64,000 bases of DNA, from contig NZ_SAUF01000005.1 in NCBI RefSeq assembly GCF_004023665.1, positions 806,001 to 870,000 on the forward strand, in the 5' to 3' direction. Numbering within the stretch: position 1 is the stretch's first letter; each line of letters opens with the position of its first letter. Below, piece after piece: positions 26,908 to 37,802 of the stretch. The translations under genes were made by a program, and so were the position numbers. Below the pieces are notes generated by a model, which ran no database searches, had not been told where the DNA came from, and saw only the letters and a program-made list of their open reading frames with translations. The stretch comes from Afifella aestuarii. GTDB taxonomy: Bacteria; Pseudomonadota; Alphaproteobacteria; Rhizobiales; Afifellaceae.

Positions 26908-27145
26908 GCGAGTTTGCCATGCTCGAAGGCGGGGATAGAAGACTAGCGCAATTCGCGAAACGAAAGCGAGGCGCGGCAAAAGCGAGATGGGCGCCGCCGC
27001 CATTCCTGAAGACCGTGACGTCTTCCGCCGATTTGCGGCCGCTGACAGCAAAGCCGGTCAGCTCCTAGAAAACTCGGGGAACGCTCACCTCGGAGATGAC
27101 GCCCTCCCCCGATCGGGATGGCGAGCTCGCCATGGACGGATCAAA

Positions 27146-28450
27146 ATGCACAACACCCGCAGATATCTCGGTGCAATTCTTCTTGTTTGCACAGGCTTTA
27201 TGTCCGCCGCGAGAGCCGCCGACGTCATTCCTTTCGACACGTCCTCACCCGGACAGATCAGAACGGGAGCGCCGACCGGCCGGGCACAGGCAAACGTCGG
27301 TCAGTTCGTGACGCTGACCGATTTCGGCGCATCGACCAGTGGCACCCAGGCGCAGAACACGTCCGCGGCGCAGAATGCGATCGAGGCCCTGTCGTCACAG
27401 GGCGGCGGCACACTTTACATACCGCCCGGCACCTATTCGATCTGCGGCCTGATCCTCAGATCGAAAATCCACATAACGGGCGCCGGCCGAAACGTCACAA
27501 TATTGGACGGCAGCTCGTGCAATTCGGCCGACGCCATCGTTTACGGCCCGTCGAATGCTTATTCACTCTTCAAAACAAGGGCTTCAGCCGGGATCTTTGA
27601 TTGGGCGTTGAAAGACATCACGATCAAAGGAAACCTGTCGCACAGCCATGTCGATTGCCTCGGCACCTACGGATATCGATTTACAGTTGATCAAGTCGAA
27701 TTGACTGAGTGCGGACGCAATGGCTGGCACACAGAAGGAGGTAATGCCACGCGCGGCCCGATGGAATCTTACGTGAACAACCTTCTCGTCTATACCGTGA
27801 ACGCTACCGGCATATTCAATAACGGCCCGCACGATTCCAACTTCGACAATGTCATCATCGTCGATGCCGGACAGGGCGCCCACGACACCTATGCCGGAAT
27901 GTATCTCGGCAGACATACCAACGTCCGCGCCAAGGGATTTCACGCCTGGCACAGATCGACGGCAACAAACAGGGTCCGCAACGCGCTGCATGTCGAAGGA
28001 TGGGGGTCGACGTTCACCTCATCCAATTTCGAAGGCAGTTTCGGACCGCCCGTCCTGGTGGGCACGGGCGCATCCATGAACCAGTTTGCTTGTGACAATG
28101 CCTATTACAACAGATTTTCACCCGGCCCTCTCATTCTGATCAGGGGCCCGTCGAACTACATATGCGGATCCGCGATGAACAACGATCCGGGAACGTTGCC
28201 CACCAGCGTCGGCATTCAGCTCGGCGACCATACGCGTGGGGAGAATGTCAGCAACAATATGATTTCTCTCCAGCAGGAGAGCAACAATGGCGGCTCCATC
28301 GACTTCTCGAATGACGGCGGCGGCAACATGATCAGAATCGTGGGATACCAATCGTCAGGCCCGAAATTTCTGGGAAGACCACACCCCTCGGACGACATCG
28401 ACCTCATCGTCACCGGCGTCGAAGGATCGAACCTCCACCAACATCCCTGA
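27146..28450 (+). CDS. Secreted right-handed beta-helix protein (pectate-lyase-3 / GH28-like)
   Basis: The 434-residue protein starts with a signal peptide (MHNTRRYLGAILLVCTGFMSAARA). The mature part has VTLTDFGASTSGTQAQNTSAAQNAIEALSSQGGGTLYIPPGTY, the opening of the pectate lyase superfamily beta-helix, then short G/N/D-rich coils through to the end. Such proteins bind or cleave polysaccharides, or act as phage-tail or alginate epimerase-like modules. No other carbohydrate-active or phage gene is adjacent. Codon use is visibly less GC-biased than in its neighbours, hinting at recent acquisition. The stop is followed after 24 nt by the convergent LacI gene. Confidence 0.75.
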   Translation: MHNTRRYLGAILLVCTGFMSAARAADVIPFDTSSPGQIRTGAPTGRAQANVGQFVTLTDFGASTSGTQAQNTSAAQNAIEALSSQGGGTLYIPPGTYSICGLILRSKIHITGAGRNVTILDGSSCNSADAIVYGPSNAYSLFKTRASAGIFDWALKDITIKGNLSHSHVDCLGTYGYRFTVDQVELTECGRNGWHTEGGNATRGPMESYVNNLLVYTVNATGIFNNGPHDSNFDNVIIVDAGQGAHDTYAGMYLGRHTNVRAKGFHAWHRSTATNRVRNALHVEGWGSTFTSSNFEGSFGPPVLVGTGASMNQFACDNAYYNRFSPGPLILIRGPSNYICGSAMNNDPGTLPTSVGIQLGDHTRGENVSNNMISLQQESNNGGSIDFSNDGGGNMIRIVGYQSSGPKFLGRPHPSDDIDLIVTGVEGSNLHQHP

Positions 28451-28474: not shown

Positions 28475-29545
28475 TTACGTCGACCCGCGCTCGATCAGAC
28501 GCAGCGGGATGTTCCGGATCGCATGTCGCGCCCGCGTTTCCTCCGGCTGCGTCTCCTGCAGCCGGTCGAGAAGCATCTGCCCGGCCACCGCGCCGAGCTT
28601 CCGTGTATCCGCGGCGATGGTCGTCAGGCCGGGCATGATTTCTTCCGCCAGCGTCGAATCACCGAAACCGGCAATGGCGATGTCGCCAGGGACGTCCAGA
28701 CCTCTCCCACGGGCCTCAAGCAGGGCACCGATCGCGAGAAGATCGCTGGCGCAGAAGACGGCGTCGACGTCGGAGCCTTCGCCGATCAGGTCCTGCATGG
28801 CCTGACGCCCCTCGGGAATGCCGGAAACCGTGTCGCGGCTGATGCACCGACAAAGCTTAAGGCCGAGCCGCTCGCAGCTTTCCGCGAAACTGTTGAGACG
28901 AAGCATGCCACGCCCGCCGCTGCGGCCAATGAAGGCGACCTTGCGATAGCCCTTGGCGGCAAAGTGCTCCGCCACCATGCGCGCACCATCGGCGTTTGAG
29001 AATCCAACCAGCATGTCGATCGGATCGCGTGCCAACGCCCAGCTCTCGACGATGGGAATGCCCATGTTGCGGAGGAAGGTGCGGTTCGATTCCAGCTCCA
29101 TCACGCCGGTGATGAAGACGGCAGCCGGACGGATCGCCGTGAGCGAACGGATCAGCGTCGTCTCTCGTCCGTAAGAGTAGGAGGTGCGGCCGAGCGCGAC
29201 CTGAAAACCGGCCGCCTCCAAGACGTCGGACAGGCCTTCGATGGCGAGGCTGAACTGCTCGCTCAGGATATTGGAGACGAAGGCGGCGACGATGTCGGAG
29301 CGGCCGCTCTTCAGCGCCTTGGCGTGGGGATTTGAGGAATATCCGGTCTCCTCGACCGCCTTCATGATGCGTTCGCGGCGCACCGCGGACACCATCTGCG
29401 GCCGACGCAGAGCACGCGACACGGTGATCGGAGAGACCTGGGCGAGGCGCGCCACCTCCTCGATGCGGACCGGCCCGTGTTCGGCCTGGCTGTCCGCCTC
29501 GGGCGAAGCGATTCGCAAGACGTCGTCGAATGTCGCGTCGCTCAT
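28475..29545 (-). CDS. LacI/GntR (GalR) family transcriptional regulator
   Basis: The 356-residue repressor has an N-terminal arm of about 28 residues, then the LacI DNA-binding domain (VRIEEVARLAQVSPITVSRALRRPQMVSAVRRERIMKAVEETGYSSNPHAKALKSGRS) and a periplasmic-binding-like effector domain (about 90-350). It is the last gene of the minus-strand amino-acid catabolic operon, abutting a deacylase gene. A GTG at 29575 could give ten more residues. The best candidate operator is the palindrome at 35310-35323 in the divergent promoter region; closing the operon with its own repressor gives autoregulation. Confidence 0.9.
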   Translation of the reverse strand: MSDATFDDVLRIASPEADSQAEHGPVRIEEVARLAQVSPITVSRALRRPQMVSAVRRERIMKAVEETGYSSNPHAKALKSGRSDIVAAFVSNILSEQFSLAIEGLSDVLEAAGFQVALGRTSYSYGRETTLIRSLTAIRPAAVFITGVMELESNRTFLRNMGIPIVESWALARDPIDMLVGFSNADGARMVAEHFAAKGYRKVAFIGRSGGRGMLRLNSFAESCERLGLKLCRCISRDTVSGIPEGRQAMQDLIGEGSDVDAVFCASDLLAIGALLEARGRGLDVPGDIAIAGFGDSTLAEEIMPGLTTIAADTRKLGAVAGQMLLDRLQETQPEETRARHAIRNIPLRLIERGST

Positions 29546-29575
29546 CGCTTTCTGTTCCGGCCCGTCAGCATGCAC

Positions 29576-30619
29576 CTAGCCTTCGATTTCGGCGGCCGCC
29601 TGCACAAGGCAATCGCCAGCCTGACAATTGGCGTGCAAGCGTCGCGAGATGACGATCCCGCCACGGCGGAACCGCAGGATTTCCGGGTCGCGATCAAGGC
29701 GCTCCAGGTCGTGGTAATAGCCGGCGACATCACTGGCTTCGACGGATTGCCCGAGGGTGACGACCGGTTCGAACCAGCCGCGGCGCGTCGCGTAAATCGC
29801 CTGTTCGTGACTTTCCAGCGCCAGCACGGTCGTCGCCACCGGCGCCCTCACCTCGCTGATCAGCGGGGTCTCGGTGATGCCAAGCCGCAGAAGCAGATTG
29901 TCGATCGCGCGCTTGGTGTTCTGCATGGTCTTTGGCGTGACGGTGGCGCCGCCACCGAATTCACCGCTGACACCGATCGCGCCGGCGCGGGCGACCGCAC
30001 CCATTGAGGTTGGGGAATCGTAGCCATTCTGCGCGACAAAAGCGTAGTCCTGGCCAAGATGCTCCAAGAGATCGCGCGCCTTTGCCATCATTTCCGGCGT
30101 CGGCTGCCGTTCGATCAGCGCCGTGGTCAGATGCTCCATCGACGTGCCACCGGAATGGATGTCGAAAACCACGTCATGCTGGGGAAACAACTGGTGTTCA
30201 AGATAGTACGCCAGACGTTCCGTTGGCGTGCCGGTCGGGTTGCCTGGGAAAGCGCGGTTCAGATTGCCGTCGTCGAGGGGAGATCGGCGCCGCCCGGCCA
30301 TGACGGCGAGGACGTTGCTCATCGGCAGGATGGTGACGGCGCCGTGGATGCGGTCGGGATCGAGGGCGTGCAGGACATGGCCGAGGGCGAAAACGCCTTC
30401 ATATTCGTCACCATGATTTCCGGCCATCAATAGGAGCCGCGGGCCGTCGCCGTTCTTGAAGCGGAAGATGGGAATCTTGACCTGAAAATAAGGCGAGCGG
30501 TCGATGGAATAAGGAATGCTGAGATAGGTCGAGGAGCGACCGTCGGCATCGAGGTCGAGATCCGTCAGAATACCGGTGTGCACGTGAGTTTTTCCAAATG
30601 TTATCGGACGGGACCGCAA
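29576..30619 (-). CDS. M14-type zinc deacylase (succinylglutamate desuccinylase/aspartoacylase family), copy 1
   Basis: The 347-residue protein has AstE/AspA-family zinc ligands His69 and Glu72 in GNHGDEYEG and His155 in VFDIHSGG, plus the substrate Arg/Asn segment NLNRAFPGN. The family removes N-acyl groups (succinyl, acetyl) from amino acids; the DoeB/EutE branch deacetylates N-acetyl-diaminobutyrate in ectoine breakdown. It lies 24 nt behind the RidA gene and abuts the LacI gene. The listed TTG start is weak; a GTG at 30581-30583 behind GGAAA is an alternative. It is paralogous to the protein at 35361-36401. Confidence 0.85.
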   Translation of the reverse strand: MRSRPITFGKTHVHTGILTDLDLDADGRSSTYLSIPYSIDRSPYFQVKIPIFRFKNGDGPRLLLMAGNHGDEYEGVFALGHVLHALDPDRIHGAVTILPMSNVLAVMAGRRRSPLDDGNLNRAFPGNPTGTPTERLAYYLEHQLFPQHDVVFDIHSGGTSMEHLTTALIERQPTPEMMAKARDLLEHLGQDYAFVAQNGYDSPTSMGAVARAGAIGVSGEFGGGATVTPKTMQNTKRAIDNLLLRLGITETPLISEVRAPVATTVLALESHEQAIYATRRGWFEPVVTLGQSVEASDVAGYYHDLERLDRDPEILRFRRGGIVISRRLHANCQAGDCLVQAAAEIEG

Positions 30620-30643
30620 CTGGCCCCGCCCTGTTCTTAAGGC

Positions 30644-30991
30644 TCAGAGAGCCGCGACCGCCGTCATCTCCACACGCAGATCGGGATCTGCCAGGCGGGC
30701 CTCGACGCAGGCGCGCGCAGGCGGATTGGCGGGGTCGATCCATTTGTCGTAAACGCTGTTCATCGCGTCGAAATCGATGATGTGCGGCAGGAACACATTG
30801 ACCGCCACGATCTTCGACTTGTCTGATCCGGCGCCCTCGACGAGGGCCAGGATTTTTGCAAGGACTTCCTCCGTCTGTTGCTCGATGGAAGCCTTGCGGC
30901 TGTCGGCCACCTGGCCGGCGACATGGACGAAGCCGTTGGCCGCAACGGCCTGGCTCATGCGCGGGCCGCTTTCGTAACGCGTAATGGTCAT
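30644..30991 (-). CDS. ridA: RidA family reactive imine/enamine deaminase
   Basis: The 115-residue RidA/YjgF-family protein has the sequence VAANGFVHVAGQVADSRKASIEQQTEEVLAKI, the DFDAMNSVYDKW segment and the active-site region PPARACVEARLADPDLRVEMTAVAAL with the conserved arginine. It hydrolyses enamine/imine products of PLP-dependent dehydratases to 2-oxo acids plus ammonia. That function fits its position between an amino-acid ABC transporter and a deacylase, in a locus with two PLP dehydratase-like enzymes. It is a divergent RidA, likely specialised for the local substrate. Confidence 0.88.
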   Translation of the reverse strand: MTITRYESGPRMSQAVAANGFVHVAGQVADSRKASIEQQTEEVLAKILALVEGAGSDKSKIVAVNVFLPHIIDFDAMNSVYDKWIDPANPPARACVEARLADPDLRVEMTAVAAL

Positions 30992-31018
30992 GTCTTTCCG
31001 TCTACTCTCTTTTTTCGA

Positions 31019-31804
31019 TCAGATGTGAGGCAGGTTATCCTGCTTCACGTTGAACCACTTCTCCTGCAGCTCCGGCAGCTTGCCGTTCATACGATTGGAG
31101 AAAAGGAAGGTGTCCAGCCAGCGCAGCAAGTCCGGCTCGCCATGACGGATGCCGATATGCGCCGGCGACTGGCGGATGAGGAACTTGAGGTCCATCTCCA
31201 CGTCCGGATTGTTCTTGGCCGCTTCGGCAACGATGGCGCTGTTTTCGGCAAACGAGCTCGCCTGACCGGCCATATAGGCGGAAAGCACCGAGGGAACGTC
31301 TTCGAAGCGGATGAGATTGGCGTCCGGCGCATTATCGCTCAGCCACAGATCGAGCGTCGTGCCCTTGGCAACGGCGATGCTCTGGCCGGCGAGCTGGTCG
31401 GGCGTTTCGGCCTTTTCCATATCGGCCGGGCCGTAGACACCAAGCTGGACGGCGGCATAGGGCTGCGAGAAAGCAACCTGCTGGGCGCGTTCCGGCGTGG
31501 CACCGAGCGCTGCCACGAGAACGTCGACCTTGTCGGCGAGCAGGCTCGGAATACGGTTGGGACCGGTCACCTGAACGAGCTTCAGGTCAACGCCGAGATC
31601 GTCCGCCAGAAGATTGGCAACATCGACGTCGAGCCCGGCGGGGTCGCCGTTTTCGTCTTTGAAGCCCCAGGGCGCAACATCGAGCAGCACGCCGACGCGG
31701 ATTTCGCCGGCGGACAGAATGTCCTGAAGCTTGTCGGCCTTGGCGGGGATGGTTGAAGCAATCGCGATGCCGACGGCGATCGCAAACGCTTTCAGCTTGA
31801 ACAT
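31019..31804 (-). CDS. Polar amino acid ABC transporter substrate-binding protein
   Basis: The 261-residue family-3 binding protein has a signal peptide (MFKLKAFAIAVGIAIASTIPAKA). The mature part includes AGEIRVGVLLDVAPWGFKDENGDPAGLDVDVANLLADDLGVDLKLVQV, then VTGPNRIPSLLADKVDVLVAALGATPERAQQVAFSQPY, typical of polar amino acid receptors. It binds an amino acid or derivative in the periplasm. It lies 12 nt behind the ATPase gene and 27 nt before the RidA gene. The acidic pair and Arg of the usual alpha-amino/carboxylate site cannot be confirmed by eye. Confidence 0.92.
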   Translation of the reverse strand: MFKLKAFAIAVGIAIASTIPAKADKLQDILSAGEIRVGVLLDVAPWGFKDENGDPAGLDVDVANLLADDLGVDLKLVQVTGPNRIPSLLADKVDVLVAALGATPERAQQVAFSQPYAAVQLGVYGPADMEKAETPDQLAGQSIAVAKGTTLDLWLSDNAPDANLIRFEDVPSVLSAYMAGQASSFAENSAIVAEAAKNNPDVEMDLKFLIRQSPAHIGIRHGEPDLLRWLDTFLFSNRMNGKLPELQEKWFNVKQDNLPHI

Positions 31805-31816
31805 GGCTGTCTTCCT

Positions 31817-32548
31817 CTAGTGACGGTGTGAGCCGATGAAGCTCTGGAGCTCCGGCGTCTTGGGATTTGCGAACAATTCCGCGGGTGGTCCTTCTTCCCA
31901 GACCTTGCCCTGATGCATGAAGACGAGCTTGGTCGCCACGTTGCGGGCAAAGCCCATTTCGTGGGTGACCAGGATCATCGTCATGCCCCTCCTGGCCATG
32001 TCCTCCATGACCTTGAGAACTTCCCCGACGAGTTCGGGATCGAGCGCCGACGTGACCTCATCGAAGAGCATGAGATTGGGCGACATCGCGAGACAGCGCG
32101 CAATCGCCACGCGCTGCTGCTGGCCGCCCGAAAGCTGTTCGGGGTAGGCGTCGATCTTCTCCGCCAGCCCGACTTGCGTGAGCACCTTCTCGGCAAGGAC
32201 GCGCGCGCCCGCCTTGTCGACCTTTTTCGTGCGGATCGGCGCCAGCGTGATGTTGCGCTCTACCGTCAGGTGCGGGAACAGATTGAAGGCCTGAAAGACG
32301 ATGCCGACTTTCTGGCGCAGTTCGCGCAGGCCCTTCATCTTCGGAGAGACGCTCTGTCCCTCGACCCGGATCTCGCCGGCCTGAATGGCTTCGAGCGCGT
32401 TAATGCAACGCAAGAGAGTGCTCTTGCCCGAGCCACTGCGCCCGATGATCGTGACGATCTCGCCTTCCTCGATATTGAGCGAGACGTCCTTCAGCACCTC
32501 CAGATCTCCGAAGGATTTGCGGACGTTCTTGATTTCAACCAGTGCCAT
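31817..32548 (-). CDS. Polar amino acid ABC transporter ATP-binding protein
   Basis: The 243-residue GlnQ/HisP-type ATPase begins MALVEIKNVRKSFGDLEVLKDVSLNIEEGEIVTIIGRSGSGKSTLLRCINALE. It has signature LSGGQQQRVAIARCLA, Walker B LMLFDEVTSALDPELVGEVLKVM, and switch LVTHEMGFARNV. These are textbook landmarks of polar amino acid uptake ATPases. The start ATG at 32546-32548 lies inside the last codons of the upstream permease (14-nt overlap). The extra 23 upstream residues of the open frame are not family-like. Confidence 0.94.
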   Translation of the reverse strand: MALVEIKNVRKSFGDLEVLKDVSLNIEEGEIVTIIGRSGSGKSTLLRCINALEAIQAGEIRVEGQSVSPKMKGLRELRQKVGIVFQAFNLFPHLTVERNITLAPIRTKKVDKAGARVLAEKVLTQVGLAEKIDAYPEQLSGGQQQRVAIARCLAMSPNLMLFDEVTSALDPELVGEVLKVMEDMARRGMTMILVTHEMGFARNVATKLVFMHQGKVWEEGPPAELFANPKTPELQSFIGSHRH

Positions 32549-33185
32549 TGAGACGCGCCTCGAGTGAACGGGACCAGGTGGTGAGCGGGAAGCAGATCGC
32601 GAAATAGACCGCCGCAACGATGGAGTAGACGAAGATCTGCTGGAACGTCGCGGCGGCGGCGATCTGGCCAGCCCGCGTCAGCTCCACGAAGCCGACGACG
32701 GCCGCAAGCGACGTGCCCTTGATGAGCTGGACAAGGAAGCCGACCGTCGCCGGCAGCGAGATCTTCAGCGCCTGCGGCGCGATAATGAAGCGGAATTGCT
32801 CGTAGCGGCTGAGCCCGAGCGAGGCCCCCGCCTCCCATTGGGTGAATTTGACCGCCTGGATGCCGCCCCGCCAGATTTCGCCCAGGAAGACGCCGGAATA
32901 GATGGAGAAGGCAACCGTCACCGCGGCCAGCGACGGCACCTCGACGCCCAGGAACACCGGCATGCCGAAATAGAAGAACATCAGGAGCGCCAGCAGCGGC
33001 ACACCCTGCACGATTTGCAGGATGAGCGCGGCAAACAGGCGGAGCGGCAGGAACGGACTCGTGCGCAGAAGCGCCAGAACGAGACCGAGCAGGCCGCCGA
33101 AGAAGAAGGAGAGCGCGACCAGCACCAGCGTCCACTGGAAGCCGTGCAAAAAGGCGATGAGGTCGACAGTCGAAAGGCTGCGCAT
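32535..33185 (-). CDS. Polar amino acid ABC transporter permease, second subunit
   Basis: The 216-residue HisM-type permease has about five hydrophobic helices and the family segments LVALSFFFGGLLGLVLALLRTS, QGVPLLALLMFFYFGMP and the EAA loop EAGASLGLSRYEQFRFIIAPQALKISLPATVG. It pairs with the permease encoded just upstream to form a heterodimeric channel. The start is the ATG at 33183-33185. It overlaps the ATPase gene by 14 nt. The family takes up polar amino acids and compatible-solute-like amino acid derivatives, ectoines included. Confidence 0.92.
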   Translation of the reverse strand: MRSLSTVDLIAFLHGFQWTLVLVALSFFFGGLLGLVLALLRTSPFLPLRLFAALILQIVQGVPLLALLMFFYFGMPVFLGVEVPSLAAVTVAFSIYSGVFLGEIWRGGIQAVKFTQWEAGASLGLSRYEQFRFIIAPQALKISLPATVGFLVQLIKGTSLAAVVGFVELTRAGQIAAAATFQQIFVYSIVAAVYFAICFPLTTWSRSLEARLNGTG

Positions 33186-33207
33186 CTTGGGCGTATCTCC
33201 GGAAGGC

Positions 33208-33876
33208 CTAGCGGCGCACGGGCCAGCGGAAGGCAAGCGCTCCGATGGCGGCGAACATGACCCGGCTTGAGACGACGACGACGACGTAGATCGCGGAAAT
33301 CAGCGCATAGACCTCAAAGGAGCGGAAGGTGCGCGATTCCACGAAGGTCGCCGTGTGGAAGAGCTCCGTCGCCGCGATCTGCGAGGCGACCGACGTGCCG
33401 AGAAGCAGCAGGACGAGCTGGCTGGTGAGCGAGGGATAGATGTTGCGCAACGCCGGCGGAAGAATGACGAAGCGGAACACCTCAAAGGACGTCAGGCCGA
33501 GGCATTCGCCCGCCTCAATCTGGCTCTTCGGGATCGAATTGAGGCCGGAGCGGATGATCTCGATGGCATAGGCGCCGAAATAGATGCTGAGCGCGACGCA
33601 GGCGGCCGGGAACGGCGACAGGCGCACCCCAATGCTCGGAAAGATGAAGAAGATGATGAAGAGCTGGATCAGCGGCGGCGTATTGCGGATGATCTCGATG
33701 TAGCTCTTCAGGAGGATGCGAACCGGCTTCGGCCCGCGGGTGAGGAGAACCGCACCCAAGACACCGATGAGAAGCCCAAAAAAGGCGGAAATGCCGGTCA
33801 TCTGCAATGTTGCCAGCAGGCCGTCGATGAATTCCTCGCGATATCGCAAGACCTGCTGGAAATTGAGATTCTGCAT
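33208..33876 (-). CDS. Polar amino acid ABC transporter permease, first subunit
   Basis: The 222-residue HisM-type permease has FIDGLLATLQMTGISAFFGLLIGVLGAVLLTRG at the start, IIRNTPPLIQLFIIFFIFPSIGVRLSP (substrate-gate helix pair) and the EAA loop EAGECLGLTSFEVFRFVILPPALRNIYPSLTSQ. It starts 6 nt behind the D-serine-dehydratase-like gene, so enzyme and importer are in one operon. The two permease subunits differ enough to be heterodimeric partners, not a recent duplication. Confidence 0.92.
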   Translation of the reverse strand: MQNLNFQQVLRYREEFIDGLLATLQMTGISAFFGLLIGVLGAVLLTRGPKPVRILLKSYIEIIRNTPPLIQLFIIFFIFPSIGVRLSPFPAACVALSIYFGAYAIEIIRSGLNSIPKSQIEAGECLGLTSFEVFRFVILPPALRNIYPSLTSQLVLLLLGTSVASQIAATELFHTATFVESRTFRSFEVYALISAIYVVVVVSSRVMFAAIGALAFRWPVRR

Positions 33877-33882
33877 GAAACC

Positions 33883-35238
33883 TCAGCCGAAGAAGGTTTG
33901 ATGGACCGACGTGACTCGATGCGCGTCGTCGATCACGAAGAAGGCACGCCAGCGGTCGAAGCAGGTGCAAGGATGCGAAATGCCGAATTCGACGATGTCG
34001 CCTACCGACAGCGAAACCTCTTCGCCGATGCGGAGAAAACCGTGCTGGTCGTTGAGCTTCTCGATCGCCGCAACGCCTCGAAGGTTCTCGCCCTTCTCCC
34101 CTCCCCGCCATGCGGCAAGCGCGATCGGGAAACCCTGATCGAAAGAGACATCGCGCATGCCGAGACCGCAGATCGCGAGACTCGGCTCAGGCCGCGAAAG
34201 CACTTCGGCCCATAGCCGCATCGCCGGCTTGAAAACGTCGGACGCCGCCACGATTTCACCGTCGCGCACAAAGCCGCGACGGGCATCCATCCGCTGAAAA
34301 GCGCGCGCGTAGACGCCGTGATCATGAAAGAAGATCGCGCCGCTCCGCAGCATCAGATCCGCATCGCCGTCGGCGTCGACGACCGCCGTCAGTTTCTCGA
34401 CGACGAGGTCGAAGAACTGCGAGCCGCCGGCCGACAGGAAGAGGCGGCGTTTCGGTTCGGCCTTGCGCACGCTGGCAAACACATCGGCCGCCAGGTGGTT
34501 CAGGGCCGCGATAGCCTTCTGCGTCGCAGCTTCGTCCTCGCTTGCAACAGCACCTTCATAGGCGGCCACACCGGCAAGCGCGATTTTCAGCGTGTTGCAA
34601 GCGATATCGATGAGGCGCTGAGCTGCCTCCGCCGTCCGGCATCCGGCACGCGCGAGCCCTACCTCGATCATCACAGACTGTGGCCGTCCGGCCACCTCGC
34701 CTGCGCGCGCGGCCGCTGCCAATGCGGTTGGCGAATCGACAAAAAGCACGATCTCCGCCTCCGGATAGCGTGCAAGCAGACGTCCCAGACGTTCGCCATT
34801 CACCTTACCGCCGATCTGGTTGGCGAGAAGCAGACGTTTTACGCCCGCCTTGAGCAGCACGCTCGCCTGCTGGAGATTGGCGGCGGAAAGCCCCCATGCG
34901 CCATGGGCGACGAGATCGCGTGCGAGCGCCGTCGACATCGGGGTCTTGGCATGCGGGGCGAGAAGCGCGCCCGCCTCACGGGCATAGGCGAAAATTGCGT
35001 CCCTGTTCGAGCGATAGGCACTTTCCTGCAACGTGAGCACGGGACAGGCGAGATCGCCCGCCGTCGGAGACCAGGCACGCGCGGCAATCTCCGCACCCGG
35101 GAAGGGGTCCGTTCCCGCCGGAATGCCGCGAAGCGTGTCGTCGACGATAAAATCATGCGCCATCTCGGCGGCCAGCGATCCGTCGCCACTGCCAACGCTC
35201 GTGCCGCCAGACGCGGCTGCCGATGCATCCATCACCAT
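33883..35238 (-). CDS. D-serine/D-threo-3-hydroxyaspartate dehydratase-like (fold-type III PLP enzyme, DSD1 family)
   Basis: The protein of about 451 residues has the alanine-racemase-type N-terminal barrel with the PLP lysine in LLAPHAKTPMS, followed by LLLANQIGG and VMIEVGLARAGCR. The C-terminal DSD1-like domain carries the zinc ligands in GISHPCTCFDRW (His-x-Cys pair, as in eukaryotic D-serine dehydratase). Relatives eliminate water from D-serine or D-threo-3-hydroxyaspartate, or act as D-threonine aldolases. It is the first gene of the transporter operon. The start is uncertain: the ATG at 35238 is listed; 35232 and 35163 are alternatives. Confidence 0.85.
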   Translation of the reverse strand: MVMDASAAASGGTSVGSGDGSLAAEMAHDFIVDDTLRGIPAGTDPFPGAEIAARAWSPTAGDLACPVLTLQESAYRSNRDAIFAYAREAGALLAPHAKTPMSTALARDLVAHGAWGLSAANLQQASVLLKAGVKRLLLANQIGGKVNGERLGRLLARYPEAEIVLFVDSPTALAAAARAGEVAGRPQSVMIEVGLARAGCRTAEAAQRLIDIACNTLKIALAGVAAYEGAVASEDEAATQKAIAALNHLAADVFASVRKAEPKRRLFLSAGGSQFFDLVVEKLTAVVDADGDADLMLRSGAIFFHDHGVYARAFQRMDARRGFVRDGEIVAASDVFKPAMRLWAEVLSRPEPSLAICGLGMRDVSFDQGFPIALAAWRGGEKGENLRGVAAIEKLNDQHGFLRIGEEVSLSVGDIVEFGISHPCTCFDRWRAFFVIDDAHRVTSVHQTFFG

Positions 35239-35309
35239 GAAATCCCGCTCGCCCCCTGCAGACGTTTCGTGCCCCAAATGACGAGGTTGACGTTGTGGAC
35301 ACGGAGTAA

Positions 35310-35323
35310 TGACAACGTTATCA
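35310..35323. promoter_or_regulatory. LacI-type operator palindrome in divergent promoter
   Basis: TGACAACGTTATCA is a 14-bp dyad with a single mismatched pair around the central AACGTT, the CG-centred form typical of LacI/GalR operators. It sits in the roughly 120-bp gap between the divergent dehydratase/transporter operon and the deacylase/dehydratase operon, so one bound repressor could shut both. The LacI gene at the end of the minus-strand operon is the obvious candidate. The dyad is seen directly; the protein assignment is inferred. Confidence 0.65.
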
Positions 35324-35360
35324 TTTTTGTTATGGATGACAACCCCTGGGCTGCAGGCAA

Positions 35361-36401
35361 GTGCAATTGACCGTTTTCAATGAGAAGAGACCCCGCAAAA
35401 GCACGGCTTTTGCGACGATCGATTTCGAGCATGAAGGCCGCCAGACCGGCCATATTCACATTCCGCATTCGCCGCATGACGACGCCTGGGGGGCGGTGCG
35501 AATCCCCATCGCGGTGATCAAGAACGGCAATGGGCCGACGGTGCTCCTCACCGGCGGCAATCACGGTGACGAGCACGAGGGACCGATCGTGCTTGGCGAA
35601 CTCTTCCGCGAATTGAGGCCGGAGGACATTTCGGGCCGCGTCATCATCGTGCCGGCGCTCAACCTGCCGGCCGTGCGGGCTGCGCATCGCACCTCGCCCG
35701 TCGATAGGCTCAACCTCAACCGCACCTATCCGGGCGATCCGGCCGGCACCATCTCGCAGCAGATTTCGGCCTTCGTCTGCGACCGCCTCTATCCGATCGC
35801 CGATGCGTTCATCGATCTGCATTCCGGCGGTTCTTCGCTCGACATTCTGCCGAGCGCCATCGTCGAGCCGACAAGGGACCCCGAGCATCTGAAGCGCAAC
35901 ATCGAGGCCGTGCTCGCCTTCGACGCGCCGCTGACCGTCGTCATCAGCAATCTCGGCGAGGAGCGGACCTCCACCGCGGCCGCCGTCCATGCGGGGCTGA
36001 CCACGGTCGGCACGGAGATGGCCGGCGCGGGCACCGTCTCGCTCGAAGCGCTGTCGATTGCCAGACGCGGCGTGCGCAATGTGCTACGCCATCTCGGCGT
36101 CATCGCCGGAGAGCCAAACAAAGCGCAGGGAGAACGGAACGTCCTGGAGATACCTGGCGAGCGCGGTTACGTCTTCGCGCCAGAGGCCGGCGTCTTCGAG
36201 CCCTTCCATGCCAATGGAACCTGGGTGAAAAAGGACCAGCCGGCGGGACGCATTCATTTCGTCGACAATCCGACACGCGCCCCGCTCGATCTTGCCTACG
36301 GCCAGGACGGCATTCTCTATGGCCGGCGACATCCCGGGCGGGTCGATCCCGGCAATTGCTGTCTTGTCGTCGCCGCGCCCTACCAGAAGGATCTCACATG
36401 A
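35361..36401 (+). CDS. M14-type zinc deacylase (DoeB/EutE-like aspartoacylase family), copy 2
   Basis: The 346-residue enzyme has zinc ligands His68 and Glu71 in GGNHGDEHEG and His153 in FIDLHSGG, with NLNRTYPGD and the C-terminal beta domain (VFEPFHANGTWVKKDQPAGRIHFVD). The central part closely resembles N-acetyl-diaminobutyrate deacetylases of ectoine catabolism (SPHDDAWGAVRIPI, RVIIVPALNLPAVR). It is paralogous but not near-identical to the copy at 29576-30619, so the two probably differ in acyl donor or stereochemistry. A GTG start follows a weak AGG; the stop overlaps the dehydratase ATG (ATGA). Confidence 0.88.
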   Translation: MQLTVFNEKRPRKSTAFATIDFEHEGRQTGHIHIPHSPHDDAWGAVRIPIAVIKNGNGPTVLLTGGNHGDEHEGPIVLGELFRELRPEDISGRVIIVPALNLPAVRAAHRTSPVDRLNLNRTYPGDPAGTISQQISAFVCDRLYPIADAFIDLHSGGSSLDILPSAIVEPTRDPEHLKRNIEAVLAFDAPLTVVISNLGEERTSTAAAVHAGLTTVGTEMAGAGTVSLEALSIARRGVRNVLRHLGVIAGEPNKAQGERNVLEIPGERGYVFAPEAGVFEPFHANGTWVKKDQPAGRIHFVDNPTRAPLDLAYGQDGILYGRRHPGRVDPGNCCLVVAAPYQKDLT

Positions 36402-37333
36402 TCGATCTCGACGACGTTCGCGACGCAGCCCGACGGATCGACGGCTATGTCCGGCGCACGCCCCTCTTGCCGGCAACGCAGCTTCGCAATCCCGTCTGCC
36501 CGGGCAGCCTCCATCTAAAGCTCGAATGCCTGCAGCCTTCCGGCTCGTTCAAAGCGCGCGGGGCCGCCAACAAGCTCCTCGCCTCCGATCCGAAGGATGT
36601 CGAGCGCGGCCTGGTGGCGGCGTCGGGCGGCAATCACGGCCTCGCCGTCGCCCGCAGCGCGAGCCTCAAGAACGTCCCGGCCACCATCTTCCTGCCGGAA
36701 AACGTTCAGGCCGAGAAAGTCGACAAGATGCGTCGCTGGGGCGCCGAGACGGTGATTGGCGGCGCCAATTTCGACGAGGCCAATGCCGGCGCACATGCTC
36801 ATGTCGAGAGGACCGGCGCACTTTACTTCCACTCCTTCGCCGACCCCCTGATCGTCGCCGGCCAGGGAACCGTCGGCCTGGAGATTATCGACGATCTTCC
36901 AGATGTCGAGACGGTGGTCATTGCCGTCGGCGGCGGCGGGTTCATCACCGGGGCCGCCGTGGCGCTCAAGGCGCTGAAACCCTCGATCCGGATCATCGGA
37001 GTGGAGCCGGTCGGATCGCCGACGCTCCATGCCTCGCTCAAGGCCGGGCATGTCGTCACCCTGGATCAAGTCACCAGCAACGTGCCGACGATGGCATGCC
37101 AGCGGAGCGACGAGCGGCTGTTTGCGCTGACGCGGCAGGTCGTCGACGAAGTGGTCCTGATCGAAGATGCCGCCATGGAAGCGGCGGCCAAGCAGCTCTG
37201 GTTCGAGTTCGGTCTCGCTGCGGATTCGAGCGGGGCGGCCGCGATGGCAGCGCTTGCGACCGGCTCCATTCCGACGCGGGACGACGAGATTGTCTGCGCG
37301 CCGGTTTGTGGCGCCGGCCTGCCGCCTCTGTGA
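36398..37333 (+). CDS. Threonine/serine dehydratase-like (fold-type II PLP enzyme, EutB-like)
   Basis: The 311-residue enzyme has the PLP lysine Lys52 in QPSGSFKARGA, the phosphate-binding glycine loop VGGGGFITG, and SGGNHGLAVARSA. This group includes L-threonine and serine dehydratases, serine racemase, L-threo-3-hydroxyaspartate dehydratase and EutB of hydroxyectoine catabolism. It makes an enamine from a beta-hydroxy or beta-substituted L-amino acid, substrate for the local RidA. Translationally coupled to the upstream deacylase. The C-terminus (VCAPVCGAGLPPL) departs from the usual CGGN motif, a hint of altered substrate or metal preference. Confidence 0.87.
   Translation: MIDLDDVRDAARRIDGYVRRTPLLPATQLRNPVCPGSLHLKLECLQPSGSFKARGAANKLLASDPKDVERGLVAASGGNHGLAVARSASLKNVPATIFLPENVQAEKVDKMRRWGAETVIGGANFDEANAGAHAHVERTGALYFHSFADPLIVAGQGTVGLEIIDDLPDVETVVIAVGGGGFITGAAVALKALKPSIRIIGVEPVGSPTLHASLKAGHVVTLDQVTSNVPTMACQRSDERLFALTRQVVDEVVLIEDAAMEAAAKQLWFEFGLAADSSGAAAMAALATGSIPTRDDEIVCAPVCGAGLPPL

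Positions 37334-37725: not shown

Positions 37726-37802
<77 letters not shown>

Follow-up and report, generated by a model that had tools for sequence, protein, structure and literature searches.

We analyzed a 64,000-nucleotide stretch of the Afifella aestuarii genome (contig NZ_SAUF01000005.1, positions 806,001 to 870,000; hereafter the window) that carries, at 28475..37333, a divergent locus of ten genes in two arms separated by a LacI-type operator. We propose that the locus, under its own local regulation, serves to catabolize N-acyl 2-amino-2-deoxy-aldonic acids, a reading to which we give an even chance. The mechanism, in which an N-acyl β-hydroxy amino acid would be imported, deacylated and dehydrated starting from two stereoisomers, is probable; that the substrate is an amino-sugar acid (for example N-acetyl-D-glucosaminate, and acids of the opposite C2 configuration) we place at even or a shade below. 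The genes, their conservation, the operator, the modular history of the locus and the residue changes come directly from the sequence. The features are as follows, with the arms named for the stereoisomers they are predicted to handle:

28475..29575, minus strand: LacI-family regulator, with an orthologue (at least 45% identity) in 57 of the 80 named loci described below
29576..30619, minus strand: M14a, AstE/AspA/DoeB-like deacylase of the putative D arm (PF24827; DoeB model 211.9 of 402.7 bits)
30644..30991, minus strand: RidA-family enamine/imine hydrolase (PF01042; in 64 of the 80 named loci)
31019..31804, minus strand: polar-amino-acid-type solute-binding protein, Asn188 replacing the α-ammonium Asp (PF00497)
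31817..32617, minus strand: ATP-binding cassette (ABC) ATPase (Pfam ABC_tran; GlnQ model 323 bits, cut-off 379)
32535..33236, minus strand: ABC permease B (PF00528)
33208..33876, minus strand: ABC permease A (PF00528)
33883..35277, minus strand: D-serine-dehydratase-like (DSD) fold-III pyridoxal phosphate (PLP) dehydratase of the putative D arm (PHAKT and HPC motifs)
35309..35324, no strand: LacI-type operator palindrome ATGACAACGTTATCAT, in the divergent promoter between the arms
35361..36401, plus strand: M14b, DoeB-like deacylase of the putative L arm (DoeB model 309.6 of 402.7 bits)
36398..37333, plus strand: fold-II threonine-dehydratase-like enzyme of the putative L arm (Pfam PALP; ATGA overlap with M14b)

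All ten open reading frames (ORFs), eight on the minus strand and two on the plus strand, were confirmed, and the coordinates, strands and families given in a preliminary description of the window match throughout: Pfam assigns LacI, AstE_AspA (M14) twice, Ribonuc_L-PSP (RidA), SBP_bac_3, ABC_tran, BPD_transp_1 twice, Ala_racemase_N plus D-ser_dehydrat (the DSD-like enzyme) and PALP (the fold-II enzyme). That description's gene positions stand, with two starts revised. The fold-II gene most likely begins at ATG 36398, in a 4-base ATGA overlap with M14b, rather than at TTG 36356, and the DSD-like gene probably at 35238 rather than 35277; to these we add the ABC ATPase gene, whose true start is probably about 32548. 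The palindromic operator at 35309-35324 is absent from that description.

We collected relatives by scanning the DSD-like protein against genome contigs and taking the best 80 of 220 relatives as a named sample; among 397 genomes of the order, 25 gave a DSD match, and these supplied 20 further loci, for 100 in total. Gene presence was called by identity thresholds of 40-60%, depending on the gene. The core block (DSD-like enzyme, amino-acid ABC importer, RidA, M14a and LacI) is kept in many alphaproteobacteria and in Achromobacter. Within the 80 named loci, DSD is accompanied by M14a in 74, by RidA in 64, and by the polar-amino-acid-type (PAAT) importer and LacI in 57; the recurrence of importer, DSD and LacI in 57 of 80 loci is far beyond chance. 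Genera carrying the core are mostly alphaproteobacterial (Bradyrhizobium, Mesorhizobium, Azospirillum), with betaproteobacterial Achromobacter in addition. By the thresholds used, four window-clade DSDs (L117, L121, L113 and L039) lack M14, RidA and a PAAT importer in their vicinity; M14a relatives at about 40% identity occur in the class. Three loci (L070, L083 and L098) keep the fold-II gene, have both M14 genes and RidA gone, and carry an M20 ArgE/DapE-like deacylase. This suggests that the M20 gene stands in for both M14 genes, pointing to a need for deacylation. A further M20 match, found by clustering in L105, lies distant from its DSD.

The palindrome ATGACAACGTTATCAT at 35309-35324 separates the two divergent arms, and the pattern ATGAYAACGTTRTCAT, allowing at most one mismatch, has one site in the organism's own 3.9 Mb genome and none with a reversed control. 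We counted operators and DSD motifs in the 94 loci whose DSD is at least 40% identical, excluding six of the 100 with more distant DSDs. The 14-base core of the operator (at most one mismatch) lies upstream of DSD in 62/62 loci with LacI and in 0/32 loci without it, and the operator is present in 9/9 loci that carry the dehydratase beside DSD. Because LacI gene and operator co-occur so strictly, LacI is the likely binder of the palindrome; its top NCBIfam model is the gluconate repressor GntR (236 bits, under the cut-off of 400). Further sites mark individual loci: L070 and L083 have one ahead of the importer, L062 has one between a lactonase-like gene and DSD, and the front of the M20 gene carries one in L083 and L098 (in L098 inside an over-long ORF call). 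We looked for an operator ahead of the M20 gene of L070 and found none, so that M20-front sites occur in two of the three loci.

The binding protein provides a second line of evidence. In the SBP_bac_3 fold, we take an Arg to hold the amino acid carboxylate and an Asp to hold the α-ammonium group. The Arg is retained in 65 of 66 aligned binding-protein rows, and the Asp position is Asn in 64 of 66. Three of these rows are other transporters (L036, with Asn; L092 and L120, with Asp); with these excluded, Asn occupies the position in 63/63 orthologues (62 loci plus the window). As a control, 11 SBP_bac_3 matches from this genome were aligned; the remaining three of its 14 all come from a single, very long ORF and were set aside. 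Besides the window protein, the ten family members in this alignment have Asp in seven cases and Ser, Gln and a gap in one each; L137, one of the seven with Asp, lacks the Arg. Since the α-ammonium Asp is lost and the carboxylate Arg kept, the ligand would have no free amino group, and an N-acyl ligand fits. Opine-binding proteins likewise have ligands without a primary α-amino group. A structural model of the binding protein (pLDDT, the predicted local distance difference score, 89.3) matches amino-acid-binding proteins; such a fold comparison supports an amino-acid-binding fold only, not the identity of the ligand.

The catalytic motifs of the enzymes are in place. M14a and M14b are 32.8% identical, and the NHGDE and HSGG metal motifs are intact in each. 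PHxKT and HPC occur in 94/94 related DSDs; presumably these are the PLP lysine motif and the His-x-Cys metal site of metal-dependent D-amino acid dehydratases, and the window enzyme carries both of the motifs by which DSD-type members of that class are recognized. Across 108 aligned DSD rows, HPC is present in 107, the lone exception being BhcC. The fold-II enzyme shares AASGGNH with 9/9 relatives and has Gly at the position of the serine racemase re-face Ser, which we take to be Ser84 of human serine racemase; the same alignment column holds Ser in 5cvc and Ala in TdcB (2gn0). The Gly in place of this Ser favors dehydratase over racemase activity, and we rejected the racemase reading on the missing Ser. 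All matches of the enzymes and the binding protein to characterized ectoine, hydroxyaspartate and serine/threonine models fall under the curated cut-offs.

These observations are consistent with a model in which the ABC importer would bring in an N-acylated acid, as its binding site suggests. From the D form, M14a would strip the acyl group and the DSD-like enzyme eliminate water, after which RidA would hydrolyze the enamine to a 2-keto-3-deoxy acid and ammonia; M14b and the fold-II dehydratase would act on the L form in parallel fashion. In the glucosaminate case, the product 2-keto-3-deoxygluconate (KDG) would pass to Entner-Doudoroff enzymes encoded elsewhere in the genome. LacI on the palindrome would repress both arms until the substrate arrives. 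We infer the reactions, the assignment of arms to stereoisomers, the ligand, the binding of LacI and the sign of regulation. The preliminary description had proposed import, deacylation and elimination from two stereoisomers, and this scheme gains indirect support from the lost Asp of the binding protein, the M20 gene replacing the M14 genes, and the operator between the arms.

The ong gene cluster for oxidative chitin utilisation, found in Pseudoalteromonas prydzensis and relatives (PMC9537276; related PMC12017989), follows a similar logic. There, OngB deacetylates N-acetyl-D-glucosaminate (GlcNAc1A), OngC turns the product into KDG and ammonia, and KdgK acts next; removing ongD, the RidA gene, left the bacterium unable to grow on N-acetyl-D-glucosaminate (PMC9537276). 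Carriers of ong described in that study are Gammaproteobacteria, marine and in some cases terrestrial, and a single Achromobacter (PMC9537276). The window would share with ong the deacylation of an N-acetyl amino-sugar acid, fold-III PLP water elimination, a RidA helper and a repressor, a logic that also resembles D-amino-acid catabolism. The two systems differ in that the ong deacetylase belongs to the D-aminoacylase family and both window deacylases to PF24827/M14; moreover, a sodium/solute symporter (SSS) importer, an RpiR regulator, an in-cluster KdgK and a hexosaminidase are described for ong only, and no L arm is described for it. Of the ong features, the window has RidA in the cluster and lacks the OngB family, an OngC orthologue and an in-cluster KDG kinase. 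A Klebsiella OngC-type protein (plasmid L126, with an ong-type cluster by annotation) groups with the D-serine deaminase 3gwq outside the 98-row window clade, which has Shimodaira-Hasegawa-like approximate likelihood ratio (SH-aLRT) support of 92; this is a quick tree with SH-aLRT support in place of bootstrap and with long branches flagged. We rejected direct ong membership on this placement in a different clade: the window locus appears, by analogy, to work like ong without being a member. Cupriavidus has glucosaminate deaminase and KdgK (plus eda) genes (PMC3734047, PMC2842291), which resemble the proposed route in a putative removal of ammonia from 2-amino-2-deoxy-gluconate en route to KDG; the passages used describe no N-acyl step and no L arm.

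The case for a sugar acid comes from relatives. A ribose/arabinose-type ABC importer stands beside the same DSD and M14a in 30/100 loci, with RidA in 26 of the 30, and 29 of the 30 also have a PF04909-cluster protein whose scanned member is nearest L-fuconolactonase (101/400 bits). L119 and L122 are hybrids with both importers, and L062 combines the amino-acid importer with a lactonase-like gene. Sugar ABC genes, a gluconolactonase, a short-chain dehydrogenase/reductase (SDR) and DSD (43%) stand in a row in L039, and L040 has gluconolactonase, DSD and SDR, the SDR being named from sequence only. More distant DSDs neighbor gluconolactonase, SDR, RidA and aldolase in Novosphingobium, and aldose epimerase, SDR, RidA and aldolase in Agrobacterium larrymoorei. 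The Tsukamurella DSD (34%) has a D-aminoacylase, a KDG-type kinase, a 2-keto-3-deoxy-6-phosphogluconate (KDPG) aldolase, RidA and a gluconate symporter nearby. An orphan family in 31 loci (about 392 aa, many invariant residues; for example L069:12743-13921) has no Pfam match at cut-off; it is modeled as a TIM barrel (pLDDT 86.9) whose top solved matches are the PgaB glycosidase domain, including complexes with N-acetylglucosamine (GlcNAc) and glucosamine (GlcN), a likeness at the fold level only (query TM score 0.50-0.57, root-mean-square deviation about 6-7). In the organism's own genome, KdgK-like (288.8/400 bits), eda, edd, pgl and zwf genes lie together outside the locus. We propose an N-acyl amino-sugar acid because relatives carry sugar ABCs, two lactonase families, sugar oxidoreductases and a glycosidase-like protein, and because of the ong-like logic. 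The D-aminoacylase-like protein of some Mesorhizobium-type loci matches N-acyl-D-glutamate deacylase better (268 bits) than PpOngB (224) and so is no evidence for OngB itself. Alternatively, the core may act on a 6-deoxy amino-sugar acid, given the fuconolactonase-like neighbor and, in L041, a 2-keto-3-deoxy-acid aldolase adjoining a distant DSD; this reading is not separable from the glucosaminate one.

Several points weigh against this proposal. M20 and M14 deacylases usually prefer L substrates. By threshold, RidA was not found in 18/94 loci and M14a not in 7/94, four of these seven also being without an M20 gene. Other PF00497 proteins of the genome, one with Ser and one with Gln, also deviate from Asp. 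The lactonase, the glycosidase-like gene and the sugar ABC are not in the window locus, no KDG kinase or aldolase gene is among its ten genes, and an AA10 lytic polysaccharide monooxygenase, looked for in the organism's own genome, gave no match. The PF04909 lactonase occurs in only 3/62 amino-acid-importer loci (L062, L119 and L122). Some distant DSDs are without sugar-acid neighbors: that of Mitsuaria has none, that of Pantoea stands with a PAAT importer and RidA and no deacylase or sugar gene, and that of Phyllobacterium with peptide-type ABCs, a flavin-dependent (FAD) oxidoreductase and RpiR. Identity between the window DSD and the Klebsiella OngC-type protein is only 29.6%. Finally, OngC itself also deaminates D-serine and D-threonine (PMC9537276), and therefore the fold does not single out sugar acids.

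This last activity is also an argument for simple N-acyl β-hydroxy amino acids, such as N-acetyl-D/L-serine or -threonine from peptide or cell-wall debris, which would yield pyruvate or 2-oxobutyrate. The nearest solved relative of DSD is named D-serine deaminase, the fold-II enzyme is nearest serine/threonine dehydratases, and downstream sugar-acid enzymes are absent from the locus. We nevertheless consider such substrates unlikely, since relatives place sugar ABCs, lactonases, SDR and Gfo/Idh/MocA oxidoreductases next to these enzymes, which does not fit serine or threonine, and since the regulator is nearest gluconate repressors.

M14b and the fold-II gene are found at the DSD locus in 6/100 loci (L026, L046, L047, L054, L065 and L074), and the ten rows with the fold-II gene, window included, group in a single 19-row clade (SH-aLRT 99) of the same quick DSD tree; the clade's remaining nine rows (Stappia-type and Roseibium) lack the fold-II gene. 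Across the 397 genomes of the order, with up to five candidates scored per genome, M14b matches at least 33 places in 31 genomes, a lower bound. The fold-II gene directly adjoins M14b in 26 of the 33, and one of the other seven is at a contig end. A DSD match is present in 11 of the 31 genomes (in G188 and G209 a distant DSD about 20 kb off on the same contig), and M14b is at the DSD locus in only 2/31, the window's own genome and its sister. We inspected 20 places with M14b and/or the fold-II gene, 17 with M14b and three with fold-II only; L223, L232 and L233 have dehydratase relatives (55-58%) without an M14b match nearby. Five of the 20 have their own PAAT importer, and the binding proteins of these stand-alone modules have lost the Asp in 5/5 (Ala in three, Asn in two); other places carry Gfo/Idh/MocA oxidoreductases and sugar ABC genes of the ribose or maltose type, as identified through clustering with representatives that were scanned. 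Because the pair usually lies elsewhere and is at the DSD locus in the window's clade, its distribution marks it as a separate module recruited there, so that two modules have been joined.

This independence, together with the lack of the pair at most core loci, could mean that the M14b-dehydratase arm is a functionally unrelated neighbor and that the core handles a D compound alone. We regard this as improbable: the arms diverge across one operator, which is kept in all nine loci with the dehydratase beside DSD; in the three loci missing both M14 genes the dehydratase stays and one M20 gene appears; and a quarter of the stand-alone places (5/20) use a related PAAT importer whose binding protein is also without the Asp. 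The preliminary description had treated the arms as one system, to which membership of unrelated operons would be the objection. That objection applies in part, because the pair usually lies elsewhere, yet here the pair shares the divergent promoter and operator. Two side observations concern D-aminoacylase-like genes near such pairs. In Aliihoeflea, a D-aminoacylase-like amidohydrolase (L065:6184-7827, minus strand) follows the M14b-dehydratase pair on the same strand, and about 20 kb of G209 contig C2 (L230, L042) holds the pair, a D-aminoacylase-like gene, an RpiR regulator, an SDR, the orphan glycoside-hydrolase-like gene, a Gfo/Idh/MocA gene and a distant DSD.

Two further systems resemble the locus. 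Ectoine eut-doe-ehu loci likewise have a PAAT importer, an M14 deacetylase (DoeB/EutE) and an EutB-type fold-II dehydratase; the window differs in having the DSD-like enzyme and LacI, and all matches are under cut-off (DoeB/EutE 309.6 bits for M14b and 211.9 for M14a of 402.7; EhuB 44.6/190.9; for the fold-II enzyme, the EutB models PRK07476 239.9/413 and TIGR02991 215.4/413.35). As the preliminary description had noted, the locus lacks ectoine hydrolase and an ornithine-cyclodeaminase-like gene: neither is among the ten proteins by Pfam, the rest of the genome not having been searched for ectoine hydrolase. In the β-hydroxyaspartate cycle (bhcABCD), too, a fold-II dehydratase comes with a D-specific fold-III enzyme; to these the window adds deacylases and an importer. 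BhcC (74.7/690 bits, the only NCBIfam match of DSD) and BhcB (181.2/550 bits) do not reach their equivalog cut-offs, and neither the BhcA aminotransferase nor the BhcD reductase is among the ten locus proteins. By the features tested, the sequence places the locus outside the ong, ectoine and β-hydroxyaspartate systems.

The substrate favored in the preliminary description, N-acyl-3-hydroxyaspartate or a hydroxyectoine-derived N-acyl hydroxy-diaminobutyrate, is thus quite doubtful, and we set it aside: DoeB/EutE is the nearest M14 family and the fold-II enzyme matches EutB, BhcB and threo-3-hydroxyaspartate ammonia-lyase, as DSD does BhcC, yet every such match is far under its curated cut-off, no ectoine hydrolase or cyclodeaminase accompanies them, the metal-ligand HPC of all 94 related DSDs is unlike the one aligned BhcC, and the gene contexts of relatives are sugar-like.

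Returning to amino-sugar acids, we suggest, tentatively and at somewhat less than even, that the locus represents an undescribed, widespread proteobacterial route for oxidized amino sugars, parallel to ong, with M14 deacylases replacing the D-aminoacylase; in the window's clade, one operator would now govern two once-separate modules of opposite stereospecificity, giving access to both C2 configurations of N-acyl amino-sugar acids. A literature search, in which subscription journals were scarcely covered, turned up no paper that treats these genes as a set or describes a GlcNAc1A route in alphaproteobacteria. If correct, the proposal would assign a role to genes that occur together in Bradyrhizobium, Mesorhizobium, Azospirillum, Achromobacter and elsewhere, and that bear the labels 'alanine racemase', 'amino acid deaminase' and 'succinylglutamate desuccinylase' in annotated plasmid records. 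The locus would also amount to a second route, unrelated to ong and common among soil alphaproteobacteria, for acids from the oxidative breakdown of chitin and other amino-sugar polymers. One residue change would predict the ligand type of two importer families, and two presumably stereospecific modules would be seen joined at one promoter.

Two features flank the locus. An ORF at 26987-28450 (plus strand), ending 25 bases from the LacI gene, opens with a signal-like stretch and has repeats that recall a right-handed β-helix polysaccharide lyase. On the other side, a tRNA-Pro gene at 37726-37802 (minus strand) lies about 400 bases past the fold-II gene and is a possible insertion point for the locus.

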